From: Candidatus Blackburnbacteria bacterium
GTDB lineage: Bacteria > Patescibacteriota > Microgenomatia > UBA8517 > UBA10165
NCBI GenBank assembly: GCA_016183565.1
Contig: JACPEJ010000001.1
Coordinates: 1-48,195 of the forward strand
DNA: 48,195 nucleotides
Direction of reading: 5' to 3'
The notes under the pieces are model-generated. The model was not told the origin of the DNA. It searched no databases and worked only from the letters and a program-made list of their open reading frames with translations. How positions within the stretch are numbered: position 1 is the stretch's first letter; every line of letters begins with the position of its first letter. Shown piece by piece: positions 1 to 10,206 of this stretch. Made by a program: the position numbers and the translations under genes.

Positions 1-3000
1 TATGAGGATATCCCTGTAGAGGATGTTAAACCAGATGATGAAGTATTGTCCTTAAATGATGTTACAGGTGAGTTTGAGTGGCACACTGTTGAGAAAACTA
101 TGGATATGGGAATACAGGAAGTGTTTAGGTTGGAGACAGAGAGTGGAAAATGGATTGAAACTACCTCAGAACATCCATATTTGGTCAAAGTACACAGTTC
201 CCACCAAAAAACCGCTTATACAGCGGCTTTGGTAAATCTAACAGGAATGCTAAGTGACCAGACTGATAACCTTGATAGCAATATATCACAACATGAAGCT
301 TTTGTCAAGTCAGAAAATATGAGCGTGGACCTGCCGGGAGTTGAACCCGGTAGACCTGGATTATCAGTCTGGTCTAGCAAACCTGCCAAGCCCACGCCAC
401 TGTCATTATCTCAAATAAAAGTAGACTGGGTCAAGGTATCACAGCTTAAAGTAGGGATGGAGATAGCTACAGTTAATGGGTGGGAGAAAATAGTAAGCAT
501 TACCAAAGTAGGCCGCAAACAAACCTATGACCTCCAAATTGCAGGCACTCACAACTTTGTGGGTCACGAAATTGTGGCACACAATACATATATCAATAGT
601 GCAACCGATACAGGTGTTGCCTTGGACTTGGATGCAAATAGTTTAACTACCGGAACAGGTATTGATGTTTCGTCAACTGCAGCTGCCCTTTCATCAGGAA
701 AAATGTTTTCTATTTCTAAGACTGGTGCATCTGGTTCTACTGCATTCACAGGAGATATTGCCAGTGTTACCTACTCCCAGACATTTAATGGAGGTGTTGG
801 GTTGAATTCAACTGGAAATGTTTTGGATGTGTCCCGAGCAATTACAATTGATAACACAGGCAACACTCATACAGTCTCAGGAGCTTTAGTAACAATTGCT
901 GATTCCGGGGTTGAAACTAATGGGGATATCAATAACACCTCAAATATCCTTTCTTTGGCTCAAAATTGCGGAACAGGAGTAACTTGCTCCGGGGCAGTCT
1001 TAAAGATCACAAACTCTGGGACTGGTGCTGATATTTCGCTTAAAAACTCGGAAACGATTTCAAACGGGACTGATGGAACAATAACTTTTGGTGCTGACAA
1101 GTTAACTTTGACAGGAACCACAGCAACCTCAGGCACACTCTTTACAGCAAGCTATACAGCGGCTGCCATTCAAGATGCAGCCTTAACCGGACTTTCGTTT
1201 GATATTTCAACAAACGTTACTGTTCCCAACACCGCATCAGGCAATCAAACGGGCATAAGTCTAACTGTCAAGGACGGAGGTTCCTTGGCAACTGCCATAG
1301 GCATCTCAATTGCCGGAACAGCTGACCGCGGTATTGATTTTTCCGGCTTAACTACTTCCTCGGGTGGGTCAATTGTTTATAATGACATATCTTCAACCAT
1401 TGATTTATCCTCGGTCGCGGATAATGTTTTGGAGATCACAAACTCTTCCGGGACAGCTGCAAATGATAACACAATTACACTTGAAGTAGATTCCGAAACA
1501 GATGCATCGGATAAAGTTCTTTTCCGTATTGTTTCTGATGTTGGGGGGGATGAGCAGTCTAAAGTTACGATAGATTCTGACGGTGATATTGTTGCCAATA
1601 ATATAACTCTAAATCAGGGCTTCACCTGCGCAGACTGTCTTGATTTTGATGATTTTGAAGACACACTTGATCTTGACAATAACCTCACTCTAAACCAGAC
1701 AACTTACACCTGGGGTCAAACTTTTACTGGTGATACGACGACCGGTTTTACCTATACTGCAAATTCTTTGACCACAGGCACTGCCCTAAGAATCACCTCG
1801 TCAGGAACTATCACTTCCGGTGGCGAGCTTTTAGATTTGGTCGGAAATGGTATTACCACAGGGAACGTGGTTACTGCTTCGGCAACAGCTCTCACTTCAG
1901 GATCCCTTCTTTCCTTCACAGGTCCTTCAGGAGCAACAGTTGGAGCAACAGGCGACGTGGTAACTTTAACCTCGGACATTGGCAACGCAGGAGCAATGTT
2001 TAAGTCAACCGCAACTTTTGACTCAACCGCAGCCTCGGCATCTTCATACAACGCGTACTTATCAACAACAAATTCAAACGGGACAAACGCCAACACAGCT
2101 TACGGTTTTTACTCCACCTTATCAGATGCTATTGCATTACCCAACACTGACTACGGAATTTACTCAAATATGTCAAATAGCGGTGCTAATACACTCGGAA
2201 CAAAAACAGTCTATGGCCTCTACTCTACTTCCACAAACACTTCAACAGGAGTTGGCGGGACAGCTAATACCTATGGCGGATATTTTTCGGCAACAGGAGA
2301 TACCGGCGGAGCTTCAACGACTTTTGGAATTTATGCAACAGCCTCTGGCGCTGACACAAACTACGCTCTCTATGTTGTCGGCCAGTGTGTAGCCAGGGGA
2401 ACCAGGATTAAAACCAGACGCAGAAGAAAATCCAAGACCGATACTGATTCTGGACCAGATCCTTTAGAGAATTTGAAATTTGAAATTTCTAATTTGAAAT
2501 CAATATTAAATGATGAAATGTCTAAAAATTTAAAATTAAGAGATTTAGATTTGATTAAAAATTTAAAATTAAAAATTAAAAATTATGAAAATCAAGTTAA
2601 ACAACTTGAGTCTGGGAATAATTATTCTGACTGGATTTATGAGGATATCCCTGTAGAGGATATTAAACCAGATGATGAAGTGCTATCTCTCAACGACCAA
2701 ACAGGAGAATTTGAGTGGCACACTGTTGAGAAAACCATGGATAAAGGGGTACAGAAAGTTTTTGAACTACTCACAGAATCCGGTAAATCCATTGAAACCA
2801 CTGCCGAACATCCTTACCTTGTCTGGAATGACCAAATAACAGACTTCAACTGGCTCCAAAAAGACAGTTTTGAGTACACCGAAAAACTGGCCAGAAAATT
2901 CTATTATGAGCGCTTTGCCGGTAAATCTATTTTCGTACCTGCTGTTGGTGGACGGATTCGCTTTACTCAGGAAGGATGGAACCATTTCGTCCAAAAGAGC

Positions 3001-4896
3001 CGCTCAATAAATGAACTTATTACCCGTTTCTTTGCCTTACCAAGAGTGCCAACGGTATTTAGGACTAGCCAGAATATCACCGGGTATAGAAAGCTTGAAA
3101 AAGGAACCATTACTATTGAATACTGGGAACTACAAGCAATCGTTGAATATGTACACGTCCGAGTCATTGTTTCGGCCGTGAACGGCGGTTCAAAGTTCTT
3201 CTTATCCTGTAATTGGTTGGGAACAAAACAAGAAGGGGGTATTGAAACCAACAAAAAAGAGCTGTCTCTCTCGCCTAGGGGAAAATCCCATTCGGGTCGA
3301 CGTCGACGACTGGTTACGTCTCAGCTCTTTAATAAGCTTAATATACCAGAAGATAAACAAAATGTCAAGTGGACAAAAGTAAATAAACTAAAATTAGGTA
3401 TGAAGATTGCCACCTTAAACGGTTGGGAAAGGGTTATATCAATTAAAGAAAAAAGTAGAAAGAAAACCTATGATCTGCAAATAGAGGGTACACACAACTT
3501 TGTGGGTAACGAGATTGTGGCACACAATACTTATCTTAGTGGCAATGTTGGCATTGGGACGACGAGCCCTGCCCAAAAACTCCATGTTGAAGGACAATGT
3601 GTGATCGGCAATACACTTCTGTCAATCAAAAAGAAGAAGAAGCGCCGCGGAGATGAAGAAGACGATGAAGCTGTTGAAGGAATACCAATTAAGGATATCA
3701 AACCAGGAATGGAGGTCTATTCTCTCAATGAAGAAACAGGCAGATTTGAAGCGCACAAAATCAAGGCTCTGTTAGATATGGGGGTTAAACCAGTCTTTAA
3801 ACTGATTACACAATCCGGCAGAGAGATCACAACCACAGGTAATCATCCTTATTTGGTACAATTAACTTATGATGAACTCCAAAGAAGAATTCAGCTTCGA
3901 GAAACTGGAAGTCTGGAAAGAGACTATGGCCTTAGTCAAGGCAGTCTATCAACTGATTACGAGTTTTCCGAAACAAGAACAGTATGGACTGACAGATTAA
4001 ACACCAAAAAATCCGCCGAAGCGGATTTTGGAGATCCCACCAAAGCGGGGTCGAACCTGGCTTATCACCTAGAGAGCAGGATACTACAAAATAACTCTTT
4101 TGTCAAGTCTGAAAAGGGCGTGGAGGTAGCGGGATTTGCACCCGCGGAACCCTGGATGATAAGCCAGGTTCCCCACTCAGGTACCCCCACACCAGGTTTA
4201 TCATCTCAAAAAGATTTAGTTAATTCAAGATGGACGAAAGTAATCTATCTTTCCCCCGGAGATCTTATTGCCGTTTCTTCTCTGAACTCTGATCTACTGA
4301 ACTCTGAACATGCATTATGGGACAAAATCCAATCCATCGAATATGTAGGAGAAGAACAGGTCTATGATATTGAGGTTGAAGGAACACACAATTTCGTCGC
4401 CGGGCACTATCTTAATAAAAAAACAGGGAAAGCGCTAACGCAGGAGCAGGAAAAAGCTTATATTGAATATCTTAGCCAACAAAAAACCCGCCTTTCAGCG
4501 GATTCTTTGACAGATAGCACAGTTGATACTGTTGCTTCCGACTTCTCAAGAAGAAGTCTAGCACAAGAAACCGGGTTTGTCAAGAGTGGAGCTGAGGGGA
4601 ATCGGACCCCCGCTACCCGAGTTGAGAAGTCGGAAGCCGTACCAACGGCAGCCCCACCAAAATCATTGTCTCAAATTTTAGGCGAAGATGTCAACGAAGA
4701 TGACGTTGTTTACGGCGGAATCGTTGCCCATAATACTTACGTAAGTGGCAACGTCGGGATTGGGACGACGGGACCTGCATCCACGCTCGATGTAAACGGT
4801 ACATGGAGGGTTTGCAAGTTTAGCAAACAGTTTTGTTATTGGTTCTCAAGTAGGGCCTTTAATTTTTGCTACAACAGATGCGGGTTCATTTCCTAG
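1..4896 (+). CDS. Giant NVGIGTT-repeat surface/adhesin protein, N-terminal part (5' incomplete, frameshifted 3' end)
   Basis: The frame is open from base 1, so the gene begins outside the window. It encodes a Ser/Thr/Gly-rich, beta-structured cell-surface or tail-fibre-like protein. The extein after base 586 is made of low-complexity repeats (many TTGT, SSGT, NTYGxY-type units) and the recurring NVGIGTTxPA motif typical of such proteins. Three Hint/mini-intein segments interrupt it: 1-585, 2386-3528 and 3598-4734. After NVGIGTTGPASTLDVNGT the frame degenerates into a Cys/Phe-rich stretch and stops at 4894-4896, while the adjacent frame carries a sensible continuation (ASLANSFVIGSQVGPLIF) into the next ORF. 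This implies one extra base near 4806-4813. Bound metabolite or partner is unknown; cell-surface attachment is inferred from family character only. Confidence 0.8.
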   Translation, partial: YEDIPVEDVKPDDEVLSLNDVTGEFEWHTVEKTMDMGIQEVFRLETESGKWIETTSEHPYLVKVHSSHQKTAYTAALVNLTGMLSDQTDNLDSNISQHEAFVKSENMSVDLPGVEPGRPGLSVWSSKPAKPTPLSLSQIKVDWVKVSQLKVGMEIATVNGWEKIVSITKVGRKQTYDLQIAGTHNFVGHEIVAHNTYINSATDTGVALDLDANSLTTGTGIDVSSTAAALSSGKMFSISKTGASGSTAFTGDIASVTYSQTFNGGVGLNSTGNVLDVSRAITIDNTGNTHTVSGALVTIADSGVETNGDINNTSNILSLAQNCGTGVTCSGAVLKITNSGTGADISLKNSETISNGTDGTITFGADKLTLTGTTATSGTLFTASYTAAAIQDAALTGLSFDISTNVTVPNTASGNQTGISLTVKDGGSLATAIGISIAGTADRGIDFSGLTTSSGGSIVYNDISSTIDLSSVADNVLEITNSSGTAANDNTITLEVDSETDASDKVLFRIVSDVGGDEQSKVTIDSDGDIVANNITLNQGFTCADCLDFDDFEDTLDLDNNLTLNQTTYTWGQTFTGDTTTGFTYTANSLTTGTALRITSSGTITSGGELLDLVGNGITTGNVVTASATALTSGSLLSFTGPSGATVGATGDVVTLTSDIGNAGAMFKSTATFDSTAASASSYNAYLSTTNSNGTNANTAYGFYSTLSDAIALPNTDYGIYSNMSNSGANTLGTKTVYGLYSTSTNTSTGVGGTANTYGGYFSATGDTGGASTTFGIYATASGADTNYALYVVGQCVARGTRIKTRRRRKSKTDTDSGPDPLENLKFEISNLKSILNDEMSKNLKLRDLDLIKNLKLKIKNYENQVKQLESGNNYSDWIYEDIPVEDIKPDDEVLSLNDQTGEFEWHTVEKTMDKGVQKVFELLTESGKSIETTAEHPYLVWNDQITDFNWLQKDSFEYTEKLARKFYYERFAGKSIFVPAVGGRIRFTQEGWNHFVQKSRSINELITRFFALPRVPTVFRTSQNITGYRKLEKGTITIEYWELQAIVEYVHVRVIVSAVNGGSKFFLSCNWLGTKQEGGIETNKKELSLSPRGKSHSGRRRRLVTSQLFNKLNIPEDKQNVKWTKVNKLKLGMKIATLNGWERVISIKEKSRKKTYDLQIEGTHNFVGNEIVAHNTYLSGNVGIGTTSPAQKLHVEGQCVIGNTLLSIKKKKKRRGDEEDDEAVEGIPIKDIKPGMEVYSLNEETGRFEAHKIKALLDMGVKPVFKLITQSGREITTTGNHPYLVQLTYDELQRRIQLRETGSLERDYGLSQGSLSTDYEFSETRTVWTDRLNTKKSAEADFGDPTKAGSNLAYHLESRILQNNSFVKSEKGVEVAGFAPAEPWMISQVPHSGTPTPGLSSQKDLVNSRWTKVIYLSPGDLIAVSSLNSDLLNSEHALWDKIQSIEYVGEEQVYDIEVEGTHNFVAGHYLNKKTGKALTQEQEKAYIEYLSQQKTRLSADSLTDSTVDTVASDFSRRSLAQETGFVKSGAEGNRTPATRVEKSEAVPTAAPPKSLSQILGEDVNEDDVVYGGIVAHNTYVSGNVGIGTTGPASTLDVNGTWRVCKFSKQFCYWFSSRAFNFCYNRCGFIS
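206..226 (-). terminator. Intrinsic terminator of RNA cassette 1
   Basis: On the minus strand a CCGCT/AGCGG stem with a 5-nt loop is followed by six T. It ends RNA B1, and also any A1 read-through. The same design, with the context TTTTTTG(G/TTGG), occurs in all four cassettes. Confidence 0.8.
206..273 (-). ncRNA. RNA B1, small RNA with 5' complementarity to RNA A1
   Basis: About 68 nt, from the expected +1 (7 nt past the -10 box at 280-285) to the terminator T-run. From nt 5 it carries TTATCAGTCTGGTC (minus strand, bases 269-256), the exact reverse complement of 14 nt in the anticodon arm of A1 (361-374). A short hairpin and a CAAAG motif follow before the terminator. The 5' location of the complementary segment and the ~67-nt length recur in B2-B4. 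Function is unknown; base pairing with A1 in cis or trans is inferred from sequence. Confidence 0.7.
280..308 (-). promoter_or_regulatory. Promoter of RNA B1
   Basis: Minus strand -35 TTGACA (303-308), 17-bp spacer, -10 TATATT (280-285). The consensus -35 and ideal spacer are repeated at the equivalent place in the other three cassettes. Confidence 0.75.
322..398 (-). ncRNA. RNA A1, tRNA-like RNA antisense to the intein coding sequence
   Basis: A 77-nt tRNA-like fold. The T-arm is CCGGG-TTCAACT-CCCGG. The acceptor is GGGCTTG/CAGGTCC with G3.U70 and A73, and is extended by flanking bases to 12 consecutive pairs, so there is no free NCCA end. The D-arm is reduced to GCA-GGTT-TGC, keeping the GG expected to dock with the T-loop. 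The anticodon loop CTGATAA reads as Ile(GAU), but the stem below it pairs poorly in canonical register (AGACC/GGTCT pairs around an internal loop). The expected +1 falls on the first base of the closed stem. Read on the plus strand it encodes VDLPGVEPGRPG, the usual signature of a tRNA misread as protein. A decaying tRNA gene is the alternative, but conserved design in four copies argues against that. Confidence 0.75.
405..434 (-). promoter_or_regulatory. Promoter of RNA A1
   Basis: Minus strand -35 TTGACC (429-434), 18-bp spacer, -10 GATAAT (405-410). The distance from the -10 box to the first base of A is 7 nt, identical in cassettes 1-4. Confidence 0.7.
3253..3333 (-). ncRNA. Small structured RNA antisense to intein 2 passenger
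   Basis: About 81 nt. It lies behind a promoter identical in style to those of the B RNAs and is closed by a long-range helix, AAAGAGCTG with CAGCTCTTT. The 3' strand of that helix runs directly into six T, so the closing stem doubles as the terminator. Inside are a GGGATTTTCCC hairpin and a GTCGACGTCGAC self-complementary segment. No tRNA-like partner is found upstream. It could be an RNA antitoxin or regulator for the adjacent nuclease-like passenger, but nothing in the sequence proves this. Confidence 0.6.
3340..3368 (-). promoter_or_regulatory. Promoter of the intein-2 small RNA
   Basis: Minus strand -35 TTGACA (363-368 of the 3300s), 17-bp spacer, -10 TATATT (3340-3345). Same spacing and -35 as the four B promoters. 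Confidence 0.7.
4006..4026 (-). terminator. Intrinsic terminator of RNA cassette 2
   Basis: Minus strand ATCCGC/GCGGAT stem with a 4-nt TTCG-type loop, then six T. It ends RNA B2. Confidence 0.85.
4006..4071 (-). ncRNA. RNA B2, small RNA with 5' complementarity to RNA A2
   Basis: About 66 nt. From nt 5 it contains TGATAAGCCAGGTTC (minus strand, 4067-4053), the exact reverse complement of 15 nt in A2 (4157-4171). A CCC/GGG hairpin and a CCAAAAT motif precede the terminator. It has the same architecture as B1, B3 and B4 but an unrelated complementary segment. Confidence 0.7.
4078..4106 (-). promoter_or_regulatory. Promoter of RNA B2
   Basis: Minus strand -35 TTGACA (4101-4106), 17-bp spacer, -10 TATCCT (4078-4083). 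Confidence 0.7.
4117..4193 (-). ncRNA. RNA A2, tRNA-like RNA
   Basis: 77 nt. Acceptor GGGGGTA/TACCTCC with G3.U70 and A73, extended to 12 uninterrupted pairs with the flanks. T-arm GCGGG-TGCAAAT-CCCGC; the T-loop has G where U55 is usual. The D-region CCTGAGTGGGG is short. The anticodon-equivalent arm is long: GGAACC/GGTTCC plus TGG/CCA around an 8-nt loop, CTTATCAT, so it has no clean anticodon. nt 23-37 pair with B2. The noncanonical loop suggests it is not a translating tRNA. Confidence 0.7.
4200..4228 (-). promoter_or_regulatory. Promoter of RNA A2
   Basis: Minus strand -35 TTGAAT (4223-4228), 17-bp spacer, -10 GATGAT (4200-4205). The first base of A2 is 7 nt downstream. Confidence 0.6.
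4481..4501 (-). terminator. Intrinsic terminator of RNA cassette 3
   Basis: Minus strand CCGC/GCGG stem followed by TTTTTTGTTGG. It ends RNA B3; the plus-strand translation of this segment (QQKTRLSADSLTD) resembles that of cassette 4. Confidence 0.75.
4481..4548 (-). ncRNA. RNA B3, small RNA with 5' complementarity to RNA A3
   Basis: About 68 nt. TTGAGAAGTCGGAAGC (minus strand, 4549-4534) sits at the predicted 5' end, within 1 nt, and is the exact reverse complement of 16 nt in A3 (4622-4637). An ACAGT/ACTGT hairpin and the motif ATCTGTCAAAG follow, then the terminator. This is the longest perfect match of the four pairs. Confidence 0.7.
4555..4583 (-). promoter_or_regulatory. Promoter of RNA B3
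   Basis: Minus strand -35 TTGACA (4578-4583), 17-bp spacer, -10 TAGACT (4555-4560). Confidence 0.7.
4585..4658 (-). ncRNA. RNA A3, tRNA-like RNA
   Basis: 74 nt. Acceptor GGGGCTG/CAGCTCC with G3.U70 and A73, extended by three further pairs. D-arm CCGT-TGGT-ACGG with a 4-nt loop. Anticodon-equivalent arm CCGA/TCGG around the 9-nt loop CTTCTCAAC, which in a 7-nt reading would show CTC (Glu). T-arm GGGGG-TCCGATT-CCCCT; C replaces U55. nt 22-37 pair with B3. It lies between blocks F and G of intein 3. Confidence 0.7.
4665..4694 (-). promoter_or_regulatory. Promoter of RNA A3
   Basis: Minus strand -35 TTGACA (4689-4694), 18-bp spacer, -10 GACAAT (4665-4670). The first base of A3 is 7 nt downstream. 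Confidence 0.65.
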
Positions 4897-4903
4897 CGGC
4901 AGG

Positions 4904-7900
4904 ATGATAATTGATGCAAACGGCAACGTCGGCATCGGGACGACGGGACCGGGGTATAAATTGGATGTGGCAGGAGGAGCTAATCTTTCCTCGGGCAATG
5001 CCTACTACATCAACGGGGCTTCAGTTCTTAATGCCACGACTTTAGGATCAGGGGTTGTTAGCTCTTCCCTAACCAGTGTGGGAATCATCACCACCGGTAC
5101 CTGGAACGCCACCGTAGTTGGAGCAACCTACGGCGGCACCGGCCAGAATGCGGTTACCGCCGGTGATATTCTTTATGGTTCCGCCGCCAATACCTGGTCA
5201 AGATTAGCTGATGTGGCCACCGGCAATGCTTTAATCTCCGGCGGAGTAGGTGTGGCTCCCAGTTGGGGTAAGGTAGTTTTAGGGACACATACCAGCGGTA
5301 ATTATGTCTCCTCAATTACCGGTACCGCCAACCAAATTACTGCCTCTGCCGCCACCGGTGATGTTACCCTTTCCATCCCCTCGGATTTCCGGGCTCCAGG
5401 CACGGTTAACGCCGTTTCTGGTCTTTACACCGGAGCTACGGCCGGTACCCTGCGCTTGGATTCCAGCGGCGCTCTTTCCAACATCACCAGTTTAACTCTT
5501 TCCGGAGCCATCAGCGGCGGCACCACCTACTCCGGCTCTGGCAATATCACTTCCACGGCCGGGGTGTTAACCATCAGTGGCACGGGGAATAGTTCAATAG
5601 CCGGCAACGTTGGCATCGGGACGACGGGGCCGGGGAAGAAATTAGATGTAGTCGGGGAAATTAGATCTTCCTCAACACTCACTGTTAGCGGTGGGGGTGC
5701 GACGATCACGGCGGGGAACTTGGGTATAGGTACTAGCCCCGTTGGGACAGCAGGACTATATATGAATGGTGCTATCACATCAGGGAGCACCACTCAATAC
5801 GGAATGTTCATTGATTCCTCTGCGAGCACTGGTGCAACAACTGCCATCTATGGCATGTACATGCGAGCAGGTGGAGCTGCGGGAACGTATACTACTGGCA
5901 ATGTCTACGGGATCTACGTCGCTACGCCTGCAAAAGGCGCGGGACAAACTGTCACTACAGCCTACGGCTCGTACATTCAAGCTCAGAGCGCTGGTAGCAC
6001 TAGTAACTACGGTATCTATGTCGCGGCTCCCTCGGGTGGCTCTGGCACTAATTCCGGTATCACCGTTGCTGGCGGTGGTATCGCCGTCACCGGTAACAGC
6101 ACGATTACGGGGACGCTAGGTGGGCTGACCGGGCTAACGGTGGCGAGTGGTGGGGCGGTGATGACGAACACGGCCGGAGGTGTCCCCACTGTTCTACAGT
6201 TAGAGAATGTAGGCAATATCGTCGACGACGGCGTCTCGTTAGACTTCCGACTCCGGGATAGTGGTAACAATATCGCTGACTATGTCAAGATTAGAGCAAT
6301 GATTGAAGATAGCACGGACGGCTCTGAGGACGGCTCTCTGAGGTTCCTGACCACCGTCGCAGGTACTAACGCCACCCGTATGACCATTGGGGCAGGCGGC
6401 AACGTCGGCATCGGGACGACAAGCCCTGGAGATAAGCTCGACGTCTGGGGAACAACAGACCAAGCCAGCAGAATCCGTGTCAAAGGGACAGGAACTGACT
6501 CCAACGTCGGCCTGGACCTCGCGAACGACGCCAGGTCCTGGCTGTTCCAGGTTAACGGCTGGGACTCCGACAAACTAGTTATCCATGATGCCACCGCGTC
6601 GCTGACGCGCATGACCTTTGATTCCAGCGGTAACGTCGGCATAGGAGCATCTCCGGGTACATCCGGAACCGACTTCGTAGAGATTAATACAACTTCTAAC
6701 ACAAATGCTCTATGGATTGAAGTAGATAACGGAGAAACTCAGACAGCTGCAAACATTGTAGCCCGCAGTCAAAGAGCCGCCAGCACCGCCTATAACTTCT
6801 TTAGCGCAGTTTCGGATTCAGATGGCACCCCTGATGTGGAATTCTATCTTAGGGGGGATGGCACAGGCCTGGCTGATGGGTCGTGGACAGGAGGCGGTGC
6901 AGACGTTGCCGAATGGACACCAACAAGATATGCTTCGGAACTTGAACCGGGAGATGTGCTTGTCACAGATGGTTCCTTTCACTCTCTGACAAAGAAATCT
7001 GAGGGAACCCCCTACGCAGCAGGTTTGATGGGTGTTGTTTCAACAAATCCAGGTCTTGTGGCAGGAGGAGGAGATGCAGAGAGTGAACACGGTAAGGAGG
7101 ATGTGTTGGTAGCGTTAGCCGGACGAGTACCTGTTAAGGTATCTACTGAGAATGGGCCGATTCTTCCGGGGGATGCTTTGACTTCATCTTCTATTCCTGG
7201 AGTTGCTATGAAGGCAACCCGGGCGGGACAAGTTGTGGGGAAGGCGCTGGAGAGCTTCGACTCCGCTCAGGGTGAGTCTTGCCCAGTTTCAGACCAACAA
7301 AAAACCGCCCTTTCGAGCGGCTCTTTGACGGATGTGCACTCCAATGAAGTGGCACCTGATCTGTCTGGTAAGACTATAACACAAACAGATACCAATGTCA
7401 ATAGTCCCTTTGGGGGTGTGGACCTGGGGGGAGTTGAACCCCCGCCACCCGATTTGACAGATCAGATGCCTCACCGGAGCAGGCCCACACCAAACCCAGT
7501 ATGTGGGAAAGTCATGACTTTTGTCAACGTAAGCTGGTACGACCCGGATGTGTACCTTACTTCAACTGGAGACATCCAGTTGAAGAATTCTCAATTTTCA
7601 ATTTTCAATTTTCAATCAAATTCCAATGCTTCAATGACCCAAACCCCCAACTCCCCCTACATTCCTCTATATTCCCTTAAAGATGCTGCTGGGAATTTGA
7701 TAAGCAGAATCGGAGTCTTTAGTGAAGCTGTTATTGGGAACCTCCAAGCTGGAATAATTAAGAGCTCGGAACTAATAAGCGACAACATCGTAACTCGTCA
7801 ACTCGAAACTCGAAACCTCGTTGTAAAAGAGGATCTCGTCTCACCGATTGTAAAGGCAGATACAGTCAAAGCCAGGAAGCTATTAAGCGATGAAGCTATG

Positions 7901-9367
7901 ATGCAAGAGGCGACGGTTTCGGCTTTGGCAGCGGAGACGATTACCTCTTCTTCCCCATCGGGGGATTTGACTGTGGATTTGTCTAATGAGTCCAATTGGT
8001 CTAATGGGTCTAATTTGGCCGAAACCAGTGGTTTCGGCAGGCTACTTTTGAAGGGCAATCTTGAGGTTAGTGGCCACACCCAAACGGAGACATTGGACGT
8101 GGCAAGTGATGCCTCGGTTTCCGGCACACTTTACGCAGACCGGATTAAGGCCAACCAGATTGACCTGCCCGCATCTGCGCTACGCGAAGCGTTGCAGGCG
8201 GGGGGCATTCAGGGTGTGTTTGAGGAGATGGTGGCTTCCCGATCAGCTTCCCAGAGTTTGGCGTTTGAGAGTGCAAGTTACGAGAACCAGACGGTTGTTG
8301 ATCGCTTGCGCAAAAGGCTTGAGGGACTAGATAATGCCATGAAGCAATGGAGCGATAAGGCTATGGAGCTATCGGGCCATGAAGCTATAGAGCAAACAGA
8401 AGCGGAAAAAATAGCATACAGCAATATCGAAAAGTTACTCGCTGATACAGCCTCGGGGTCTGCTACGCTGAGTTTTGCTGCGGAGACGGATTGGACCACC
8501 CTAGCTTCGCAAGGTGAGACCTTGCAAGGCTACGGTCTCAATTTGACCGGAGGTCTAAATGTCCTCGGGGACACTAATTTCTACGGGAATACGACTGTGC
8601 AGCGGCTTGTAGTAGCAAATTCGTCTAATTCGACCAATGGGACAAATTGGACTAATTTGGTTCTCGCTTCGGATTCTTTGTCAGTTGTCGGAGGGAAACT
8701 AAACTTACTTGGCTCAGAAGGAGTTGACATTATGGCCGGAACTCTTATTGTCGACGCACAAGGGAACGTTTCTGTAAACGGGAATCTTAATATTATCGGA
8801 CGTTTGACGGCTTCAACGATCGGAGCACAGGAAGGCGGAGATTTGACGCTCGATCTCGGAAGAACAAATTCGTCTAATTTGTCCAATGAGTCTAATTCGA
8901 CTAATTTGACCTCCGAATCCTCCGGATTCGGAGAGTTACTCGTCCGAGGAGTAAACGGAGAAACGGTTGCTTCAATTGATGCTTCGGGATCAGCCACGTT
9001 TAGGAAACTTGTTATTGCGGCAGGAACGAATGGGTCTAATGGGACTAATTTGACTAATGAGACTAATTTGGTCGCGTCGGACGCGACAAGTAACGCAACC
9101 GCGGGGAAGGGAGTTCTCCTTGCGGGAGAGACAATACTCACTCTCTACAACAAGAACGTAAGCGACAATACTTTGATCTACGTTACGCCAACAACCTCAA
9201 CCGGAAACCAGGTTTTGTATGTTAAGAGCAAGCTTGCCCATTCGGCATCCTTCGACTCCGCTCAGGGCACAAGCTCAGGGCAGGTCGGCCAATTTATAGT
9301 GGCGGTTGATAAACCCATCTCTCACGACGTCGAATTCAATTGGTGGATAATTGAGCTAAAGAATTAG
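4904..9367 (+). CDS. Giant surface protein, C-terminal part (continuation after frameshift)
   Basis: The coding frame is open from about 4811, upstream of the Met at 4904, and continues the previous frame's protein, so 4904 is probably not a real start. It contains many NVGIGTTxPGxKLDVxG repeats (residues ~10-600). A conserved head follows: GGADVAEWTPTRYASELEPG, then PGDALTSSSIPGVAMKATRAGQVVGKALE. Cassette 4 is inserted next, then VNVSWYDPDVYLTSTGD. A Thr/Asn/Ser-rich C-terminal half holds runs such as TNGSNGTNLTNETN and predicted beta units. In-frame insertions include SFDSAQGE/SFDSAQGT repeats and an AT-rich repeat (NSQFSIFNFQ). No membrane anchor is visible at the end (FNWWIIELKN). Surface location is inferred. 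Confidence 0.75.
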   Translation: MIIDANGNVGIGTTGPGYKLDVAGGANLSSGNAYYINGASVLNATTLGSGVVSSSLTSVGIITTGTWNATVVGATYGGTGQNAVTAGDILYGSAANTWSRLADVATGNALISGGVGVAPSWGKVVLGTHTSGNYVSSITGTANQITASAATGDVTLSIPSDFRAPGTVNAVSGLYTGATAGTLRLDSSGALSNITSLTLSGAISGGTTYSGSGNITSTAGVLTISGTGNSSIAGNVGIGTTGPGKKLDVVGEIRSSSTLTVSGGGATITAGNLGIGTSPVGTAGLYMNGAITSGSTTQYGMFIDSSASTGATTAIYGMYMRAGGAAGTYTTGNVYGIYVATPAKGAGQTVTTAYGSYIQAQSAGSTSNYGIYVAAPSGGSGTNSGITVAGGGIAVTGNSTITGTLGGLTGLTVASGGAVMTNTAGGVPTVLQLENVGNIVDDGVSLDFRLRDSGNNIADYVKIRAMIEDSTDGSEDGSLRFLTTVAGTNATRMTIGAGGNVGIGTTSPGDKLDVWGTTDQASRIRVKGTGTDSNVGLDLANDARSWLFQVNGWDSDKLVIHDATASLTRMTFDSSGNVGIGASPGTSGTDFVEINTTSNTNALWIEVDNGETQTAANIVARSQRAASTAYNFFSAVSDSDGTPDVEFYLRGDGTGLADGSWTGGGADVAEWTPTRYASELEPGDVLVTDGSFHSLTKKSEGTPYAAGLMGVVSTNPGLVAGGGDAESEHGKEDVLVALAGRVPVKVSTENGPILPGDALTSSSIPGVAMKATRAGQVVGKALESFDSAQGESCPVSDQQKTALSSGSLTDVHSNEVAPDLSGKTITQTDTNVNSPFGGVDLGGVEPPPPDLTDQMPHRSRPTPNPVCGKVMTFVNVSWYDPDVYLTSTGDIQLKNSQFSIFNFQSNSNASMTQTPNSPYIPLYSLKDAAGNLISRIGVFSEAVIGNLQAGIIKSSELISDNIVTRQLETRNLVVKEDLVSPIVKADTVKARKLLSDEAMMQEATVSALAAETITSSSPSGDLTVDLSNESNWSNGSNLAETSGFGRLLLKGNLEVSGHTQTETLDVASDASVSGTLYADRIKANQIDLPASALREALQAGGIQGVFEEMVASRSASQSLAFESASYENQTVVDRLRKRLEGLDNAMKQWSDKAMELSGHEAIEQTEAEKIAYSNIEKLLADTASGSATLSFAAETDWTTLASQGETLQGYGLNLTGGLNVLGDTNFYGNTTVQRLVVANSSNSTNGTNWTNLVLASDSLSVVGGKLNLLGSEGVDIMAGTLIVDAQGNVSVNGNLNIIGRLTASTIGAQEGGDLTLDLGRTNSSNLSNESNSTNLTSESSGFGELLVRGVNGETVASIDASGSATFRKLVIAAGTNGSNGTNLTNETNLVASDATSNATAGKGVLLAGETILTLYNKNVSDNTLIYVTPTTSTGNQVLYVKSKLAHSASFDSAQGTSSGQVGQFIVAVDKPISHDVEFNWWIIELKN
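7299..7320 (-). terminator. Intrinsic terminator of RNA cassette 4
   Basis: Minus strand CCGC/GCGG stem followed by TTTTTTGTTGG. It ends RNA B4. Confidence 0.75.
7299..7366 (-). ncRNA. RNA B4, small RNA with 5' complementarity to RNA A4
   Basis: About 68 nt. From nt 2 it contains GACAGATCAGGTGCC (minus strand, 7365-7351), complementary to 15 nt of A4 (7456-7470) with a single G.U wobble and no other mismatch. A CACT/AGTG hairpin and CATCCGTCAAAGA precede the terminator. The wobble preserves pairing, as expected if pairing is selected. Confidence 0.7.
7373..7401 (-). promoter_or_regulatory. Promoter of RNA B4
   Basis: Minus strand -35 TTGACA (7396-7401), 17-bp spacer, -10 TATAGT (7373-7378). 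Confidence 0.75.
7415..7491 (-). ncRNA. RNA A4, tRNA-like RNA in the surface-protein tail region
   Basis: 77 nt. Acceptor GGGCCTG/CAGGTCC with G3.U70 and A73, extended to 12 perfect pairs (GGTGT/ACACC outside). D-arm CTC-CGGT-GAG. Anticodon arm CTGAT-CTGTCAA-ATCGG, a clean 7-nt loop with GUC (Asp). T-arm GGGGG-TTCAACT-CCCCC. nt 22-36 pair with B4. This is the most tRNA-like of the four, yet the Asp anticodon is combined with the alanine-type G3.U70 acceptor. It is not inside an intein: it separates KALES from the conserved VNVSWYDPDVY segment of the surface protein. Confidence 0.75.
7498..7527 (-). promoter_or_regulatory. Promoter of RNA A4
   Basis: Minus strand -35 TTGACA (7522-7527), 18-bp spacer, -10 CATACT (7498-7503). 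The first base of A4 is 7 nt downstream. Confidence 0.65.
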
Positions 9368-10082: not shown

Positions 10083-10153
10083 TGGACTTGCCGGGAATTG
10101 AACCCGAAACTGTACAATGCGAATGTACCGGTATGCCGTTTACCTACAAGCCC
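10083..10153 (-). tRNA. tRNA-Ala(CGC)
   Basis: 71-nt cloverleaf. Acceptor GGGCTTG/CAAGTCC with G3.U70 and A73; U8-A9; D-arm GGTA-AACGGCA-TACC; anticodon arm GTACA-TTCGCAT-TGTAC (CGC); T-arm TCGGG-TTCAATT-CCCGG. CCA is not encoded. Unlike the cassette A RNAs it has a full D-loop and the acceptor pairing stops at 7 bp. Confidence 0.8.
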
Positions 10154-10206
10154 GCGCTATGGCAGGCGGGTGCGAATGCGGTGCATTACCACTGTGCTAC
10201 AGGCCC
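10154..10206 (-). pseudogene. 5' half of a tRNA abutting tRNA-Ala(CGC)
   Basis: Immediately upstream of the intact tRNA lies another 5' half: acceptor 5' strand GGGCCTG, TA, D-arm GCA...TGC, then CCGCATTCGCA, which repeats the CATTCGCA of the intact tRNA's anticodon loop. No matching 3' half follows; instead there is a CCCGC/GCGGG hairpin. This is probably a truncated duplicate, though an unusual leader is possible. Confidence 0.5.

Follow-up and report, generated by a model that had tools for sequence, protein, structure and literature searches.

Cassettes of an alanine-identity tRNA-like RNA and its private antisense RNA: a candidate RNA-only toxin–antitoxin–like module in small-genome bacteria

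Results

Four cassettes at the start of a Candidatus Blackburnbacteria contig

We analyzed a 48,195-nucleotide (nt) stretch of DNA (hereafter, the window) from a Candidatus Blackburnbacteria bacterium (assembly GCA_016183565.1, contig JACPEJ010000001.1, positions 1–48,195), which forms the start of contig C3 of an 885-kb genome. The window contains four minus-strand cassettes (approximately 205–434, 4005–4228, 4480–4694, and 7298–7527), each comprising, in this order, a promoter, a tRNA-like RNA of 75 to 77 nt (A), a TTGACA-N17-TANNNT promoter, and a second RNA (B) whose 5′ end is complementary to the anticodon loop and 5′ anticodon strand of A and which ends, in all four cases, in a terminator hairpin followed by TTTTTTG. 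A preliminary description made from the sequence had set the B lengths at 66 to 68 nt and the distance from the −10 box to the A start at 7 nt throughout; we find B to be ~66 to 70 nt long and the distances, measured to the paired 5′ end of A, to be 7, 7, 5, and 7 nt.

In cassette 1, a TTGACC-N18-GATAAT promoter (405–434) precedes A1 (323–397), a tRNA-like RNA with alanine identity (G3·U70 and A73) and the anticodon GAU, assigned by its match to the covariance models R1/R2 (see below), its fold, and its identity pairs. The B1 promoter, TTGACA-N17-TATATT (280–308), is followed by B1 (205–273), a putative antisense RNA whose 5′ end is complementary to A1 nt 24 to 39. The other three cassettes also encode A RNAs with alanine identity and terminator-ended antisense B RNAs. 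Cassette 2 consists of the A2 promoter (TTGAAT-N17-GATGAT, 4200–4228), A2 (4118–4192; anticodon AUC, or UAU, in an apparent 8-nt loop), the B2 promoter (TTGACA-N17-TATCCT, 4078–4106), and B2 (4005–4071), which is complementary to A2 nt 22 to 38 and to the A2 D arm. Cassette 3 consists of the A3 promoter (TTGACA-N18-GACAAT, 4665–4694), A3 (4584–4659; anticodon CUC), the B3 promoter (TTGACA-N17-TAGACT, 4555–4583), and B3 (4480–4549), complementary to A3 nt 23 to 38. In cassette 4, the A4 promoter (TTGACA-N18-CATACT, 7498–7527) and A4 (7416–7490; anticodon GUC) are followed by the B4 promoter (TTGACA-N17-TATAGT, 7373–7401) and B4 (7298–7369), complementary to A4 nt 21 to 35 and to the A4 D arm. 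ARAGORN labels A4 (7415–7488) as tRNA-Asp(GUC) despite its alanine-identity acceptor, and similar mislabels are likely elsewhere. Apparent 8-nt anticodon loops (e.g., CTTATCAT, CTTGTCAT), as in +1 frameshift-suppressor tRNAs, occur in A2 (4118–4192), at loci L039 and L055, and at several loci from other classes, such as L237, L238, and L243.

Each B RNA is complementary to the anticodon arm of its own A RNA

Pairing was scored along the helix (Watson–Crick pair, 1; G·U pair, 0.5; mismatch, −2). The own pairs of window cassettes 1 to 4 scored 15.5, 16.5, 16, and 14.5, against 5 to 8.5 for the 12 wrong pairings, confirming on the minus strand the earlier claim that each A and B match their own partner only. 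In the 34 tandem A-to-B cassettes of the first set (see below), own pairs averaged 14.8 to 14.9, compared with 7.0 (standard deviation [sd] 1.7) for 1,122 non-partner pairs and 6.3 (sd 1.2) for 6,800 base-shuffled B sequences. Since these cassettes are related, the counts are not independent events, and covariation is a stronger argument than the scores. Anticodon positions 34, 35, and 36 form Watson–Crick pairs with B in all 34 cassettes, using 4, 3, and 3 pair types, respectively. This covariation, together with the gap between own and wrong pairs, excludes chance, as the preliminary description had argued; its "programmable" recognition step holds only in the sense of an arm pair that drifts and compensates freely.

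The complementary segment is 12 to 20 nt long and centered on the A anticodon (50 A RNAs with a private B); in the 34 tandem cassettes it starts at the B 5′ end, and in nearly all of them this end is 5 to 8 nt downstream of the −10 box. When A nt 1 to 40 were folded against B using duplexfold, a bulge of ~3 nt in B separated the anticodon-arm helix from a second helix with the D arm. The 14 to 16 nt of complementarity reported earlier are thus real but too short, as a D-arm stretch beyond the bulge also pairs. Family f11 (L065, L067, L069, L070, and L174) shows little or no D-arm pairing, which is therefore no general feature.

Wrong pairs drawn from the same genome (n = 36) scored at most 9.5, against the 14.8 to 14.9 of own pairs, even in genomes G041, G296, and G319, whose cassettes share anticodons. 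Orthogonality within a genome thus appears to be kept by diverged stems, as selection for orthogonal pairs would give.

The pairing is retained in a wider sample and in three gene orders

Covariance models of A (R1 and R2), built from sequences with G3·U70 and TCCAC, were used to scan genomes and found four A RNAs in the source genome and four in relatives. A RNAs were then found in 26 of the 374 genomes of the class (first set, 37 A RNAs), and a model search gave 14 more in other classes of the phylum, for a total of 51. A strict promoter pattern had matched nothing outside the class and suggested that the cassettes were limited to it, a view that these 14 matches overturned; a second promoter-pattern scan over the class gave no useful additions. 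Candidate loci L042–L045 were rejected as cassettes. Viral carriage was also rejected: a pattern scan of IMG/VR gave 84 stretches, and the R2 model found no A in any of the 80 to which it was applied.

A complementary B accompanies 50 of the 51 A RNAs, so that complementarity held in the larger sample that the preliminary description had named as a possible refutation. The exception, L072 (genome G148), is a decayed cassette: its A has a hairpin of 30-odd nt inserted into the T arm, and its B differs in specificity, being like that of cassette 2. Such a mismatch is what a requirement of intact A RNAs for their own B would predict; as a single case, it proves little.

Most often, A comes first and B follows. 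B lies upstream of A in L066, L176, and L230, and is convergent, on the opposite strand, in L239 and L240; L066 and L176 as orphan A RNAs, and L239 and L240 as A RNAs without B, were accordingly rejected. B has its own promoter-like and terminator sequences in all three arrangements; most loci show separate promoters for the two RNAs and a terminator behind B. Since B may follow A, precede it, or converge on it, the two RNAs, each with its own promoter, must pair in trans.

A RNAs combine alanine identity with non-alanine anticodons

The acceptor stem of A has 7 base pairs (bp), and G1:C72, G2:C71, G3·U70, and A73 are invariant in 51 of 51 A RNAs (subject to an ascertainment effect discussed below); pairs 4:69 to 7:66 vary with compensation. 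Among the resident tRNAs of two genomes (39 and 48 tRNAs), G3·U70 occurs only in the three tRNA-Ala. G3:U70 suffices for charging by alanyl-tRNA synthetase (AlaRS), an enzyme that ignores the anticodon (PMC11415595). The T stem is 97 to 100% paired, and the D arm consists of ~3 bp with a small loop. Several A RNAs have an imperfect anticodon stem, in which 31:39 is paired in 68%. In the window, a partial tRNA-Ala-like stretch without an ARAGORN call (10150–10206, minus strand) adjoins two tRNA-Ala genes.

The anticodon loop is of the decoding type. Among 37 A RNAs, Y32 is present in 37, U33 in 33, A37 in 36, and A38 in 34, and positions 34 to 36 are variable. Nothing would be expected to preserve these decoding features if A were merely the pairing partner of B. 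The anticodons, tabulated for the same 37, correspond to Asp (11), Glu (8), Arg (6), Leu (5), Ile (2), Val (1), and His (1). None of the 37 is an alanine anticodon (NGC), and Ser, Thr, Pro, Gly, and stop anticodons are also absent from them; because position 35 is never G, codons for Ala, Ser (UCN), Thr, and Pro are never read. The resemblance of A1 to tRNA-Ile(GAU) and of A4 to tRNA-Asp noted earlier is confined to the anticodon loop, as their acceptor stems carry the G3·U70 alanine pair.

It is scarcely credible that A RNAs are normal tRNAs that complete a deficient tRNA set and that their antisense transcripts are incidental or due to chance. This reading would account for the ARAGORN call of cassette 4 as tRNA-Asp, no other tRNA-Asp having been found in this incomplete assembly, but the acceptor identity is alanine rather than the amino acid of the anticodon, and covariation excludes chance. 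A role as filler for a missing isoacceptor was rejected because genome G129 has a full tRNA set, including tRNA-Arg(GCG), yet has an A whose anticodon is GCG. Alanine identity with a non-alanine anticodon, and the unusual minimal D arm, would also suit a nonribosomal alanine donor (e.g., for cell-wall or lipid aminoacylation) whose anticodon is sealed by B. We consider this very improbable, since it leaves unexplained the conservation of the decoding loop, the changing anticodon, the antisense RNA, and the orthogonality within genomes.

B promoters are closer to consensus than A promoters, and B fits its own A better than resident tRNAs

The B promoter is closer to consensus than the A promoter in 32 of 37 cassettes and is never worse. 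In family f11 (L065, L067, L069, L070, L073, and L174–L176), many loci have a motif like CACTTCTTG or GGTTNTTGTAA upstream of A at the expected −35 position, possibly a regulator site.

The preliminary description had offered, among other readings, that B sequesters the anticodon arm of A or that B targets genuine tRNAs. We compared B 5′ ends with resident tRNAs. In the source genome, whose assembly is without some tRNAs, such as Asp, the best score for a window B was 11 (B1 on tRNA-Ile(GAU), through the common loop CTGATAA) and the others were at most 9, compared with 14.5 to 16.5 on their own A. In G129, whose single contig encodes a full tRNA set, the B of L069 reached 16 with its own A and no more than 11.5 with any tRNA. 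With no strong match to resident tRNAs in either genome, targeting of genuine tRNAs is not upheld as the main role of B, and sequestration of A is supported.

A related possibility is that B is an effector small RNA acting on mRNAs or resident tRNAs, with A as its decoy or sponge. The exposed, guide-like B 5′ end and the residual complementarity of B to the resident tRNA whose anticodon matches that of A (11 to 11.5) are consistent with this, but a sponge would need no AlaRS identity, U33/A37, or tRNA fold, and B 5′ ends fit A far better than resident tRNAs and change with A. We therefore regard an effector role of B as improbable.

Orthologues and genomic context

Three species of genus g115 have cassettes (L067, L070, and L174) at one common locus with flanks 68 to 71% identical. 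Most differences between L067 and L070 fall in the two arms that pair, and their anticodons are GCG and GUG, respectively. In these orthologues, the acceptor and T arms of A were largely kept, and the anticodon arm and the B 5′ end changed together.

In the window, cassettes 1 to 3 lie antisense within a plus-strand ORF (open reading frame) of 1616 amino acids (aa) with intein/Hint splicing domains (46–4896), and cassette 4 lies within a plus-strand ORF of 1487 aa, adhesin-like and without a Pfam match (4904–9367); both ORFs stay open through the cassettes. In all, about 20 of the 37 first-set loci, and 6 of the 14 found later, are located in long open frames, always in antisense orientation; others are intergenic. 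In sense orientation the terminator would cut the host mRNA, which may explain this bias. The host proteins include Hint/intein-domain adhesins and, as named by eye, LamG-type and membrane proteins. The cassette has no protein of its own, and no common neighbor gene (e.g., for an effector protein) was noticed at the loci read, a reading that was not a systematic screen.

The ORF hosting cassettes 1 to 3 also contains a Hint copy with an inserted domain (2830–3370; weak Pfam LPD3 match, below cut-off). After this domain, the minus strand has a TTGACA-N17-TATATT promoter (at 3368) as well as a terminator-like RNA, perhaps a second kind of in-frame cassette. The LeuRS in L048 (G041) has a similar in-frame inserted domain.

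Placement of many cassettes in frame in unrelated host ORFs, always antisense, recalls Rickettsia palindromic elements (PMC10969869), and the distribution is patchy. Thus, the cassettes might be palindromic selfish DNA, of this type or of the miniature inverted-repeat transposable element type, whose complementarity is an inverted repeat and whose promoters and tRNA likeness are incidental. This seems most doubtful to us, because B occurs in three arrangements, of which the convergent one gives no inverted repeat, and because the consensus promoters, terminators, G3·U70, A73, and loop conservation would be unexplained.

The main rival explanation is regulated mistranslation, in which A would be used on purpose, for stress release or surface-protein diversification, and would be no toxin. 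The evidence that A is a miscoding alanyl-tRNA restrained by B also serves this explanation, which is further favored by vertical retention at the g115 locus and by the location of many cassettes in adhesin or surface-protein genes. We nevertheless consider it rather unlikely, since anticodons vary freely among cassettes and orthologues, so that no fixed substitution is conserved, and since the patchy presence in the class suggests a selfish or defense trait.

Discussion

A candidate RNA-only toxin–antitoxin–like module

As read from the DNA, each cassette comprises two RNA units with promoters and terminators; the two pair privately and covary in three gene orders, and A joins alanine identity and a decoding-type loop to a non-alanine anticodon. 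Private pairing, the stronger B promoters, the patchy distribution, and orthogonality within genomes together make a toxin–antitoxin–like role the most likely one. We put at roughly 55% the probability that the cassette is an RNA-only toxin–antitoxin–like module in which A would be a miscoding alanyl-tRNA toxin and B a private antisense antidote to its anticodon arm.

According to this model, both RNAs would be expressed, and A, once processed, would be a minimal tRNA, expected to be alanylated by AlaRS through G3·U70 and A73. Free A would then insert alanine at Asp, Glu, Arg, Leu, or Ile codons, to toxic effect. B, made from the stronger promoter, would pair in trans with the anticodon loop and 5′ anticodon strand of A, and mostly also with the D arm, thereby silencing A by blocking its folding and decoding. 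If short-lived, B would have to be made continually, and its loss would free A to mistranslate, as in an addiction or abortive-infection type of system. Because each A–B pair is private, a cassette would not be silenced by the B of another. On balance, the cassettes probably represent a module family across several classes of one small-genome phylum, with anticodon-arm diversification keeping coexisting cassettes orthogonal.

Several points weigh against the toxin–antitoxin–like model. The invariance of the acceptor in later matches is partly ascertainment, as R1 and R2 were trained on sequences with G3·U70 and TCCAC. The ~3-bp D arm and the imperfect anticodon stem suggest that A may be a poor decoder. 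A conserved 4-bp leader–trailer extension pairs A73 with U-1, and A may never be charged unless RNase P removes it. The Rfam tRNA model (RF00005) scores A4 at 27.5 bits, against a cut-off of 29, and does not match the other three window A RNAs; no Rfam family scored above threshold at the window cassettes. The residual complementarity of B to resident tRNAs of the same anticodon is a further such point, and long vertical retention at one g115 site would also fit a regulatory role.

If the model is correct, the cassettes would be a new, protein-free way to attack and guard translation, with the genetic code itself as the weapon and selection acting on deliberate miscoding. They would also offer orthogonal anti-tRNA RNA pairs for engineering and explain tRNA genes mislabeled by annotation pipelines, such as A4 as tRNA-Asp.

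Comparison with known systems

By kind, the cassettes come closest to type VIII toxin–antitoxin systems (SdsR/RyeA and CreTA), in which both the toxin and the antitoxin are RNAs, one neutralizing the other; CreT, too, affects translation, by sequestering a rare tRNA (PMC12737573). The cassettes are similar in that both partners are predicted RNAs encoded side by side, one pairing specifically with the other; membership would further require that free A be harmful to the cell. They differ in that the putative toxin is a tRNA with mismatched identity whose anticodon is covered by B, with neither a Cas protein nor an mRNA-like toxin. In type I systems (hok/sok and kin), an antisense RNA from a stronger promoter silences its partner RNA, and pairs within a genome are private. 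Unlike these, the cassettes have no toxin peptide or toxin mRNA, and the silenced RNA would be tRNA-like and is encoded apart from B, without overlap.

Mistranslating tRNA-Ala anticodon variants (human, yeast, and engineered) likewise combine G3:U70 with a non-alanine anticodon (PMC11415595). Those variants are mutant or engineered single genes, whereas the cassettes are an evolved family, with an antisense RNA dedicated to A. The A3 acceptor (GGGGCTG...CAGCTCCA) resembles the alanine-type acceptor of transfer-messenger RNA (tmRNA). A shares a reduced D arm with the tRNA-like domain of tmRNA but is only 75 nt long, lacks a tag-coding domain, and has a U33/A37 anticodon arm. Rickettsia palindromic elements are small and occur as in-frame insertions in numerous unrelated ORFs (PMC10969869). 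The cassettes differ from them in having two promoters, a terminator, a structured tRNA-like RNA, and a gene order that is not fixed.

Our literature searches found no description of such tRNA/antisense cassettes. To our knowledge, no known system dedicates an antisense RNA to the anticodon arm of a tRNA with mismatched identity, and no described type VIII toxin is a tRNA. Should A prove toxic, the cassettes could also fairly be called a variant form of RNA–RNA toxin–antitoxin.

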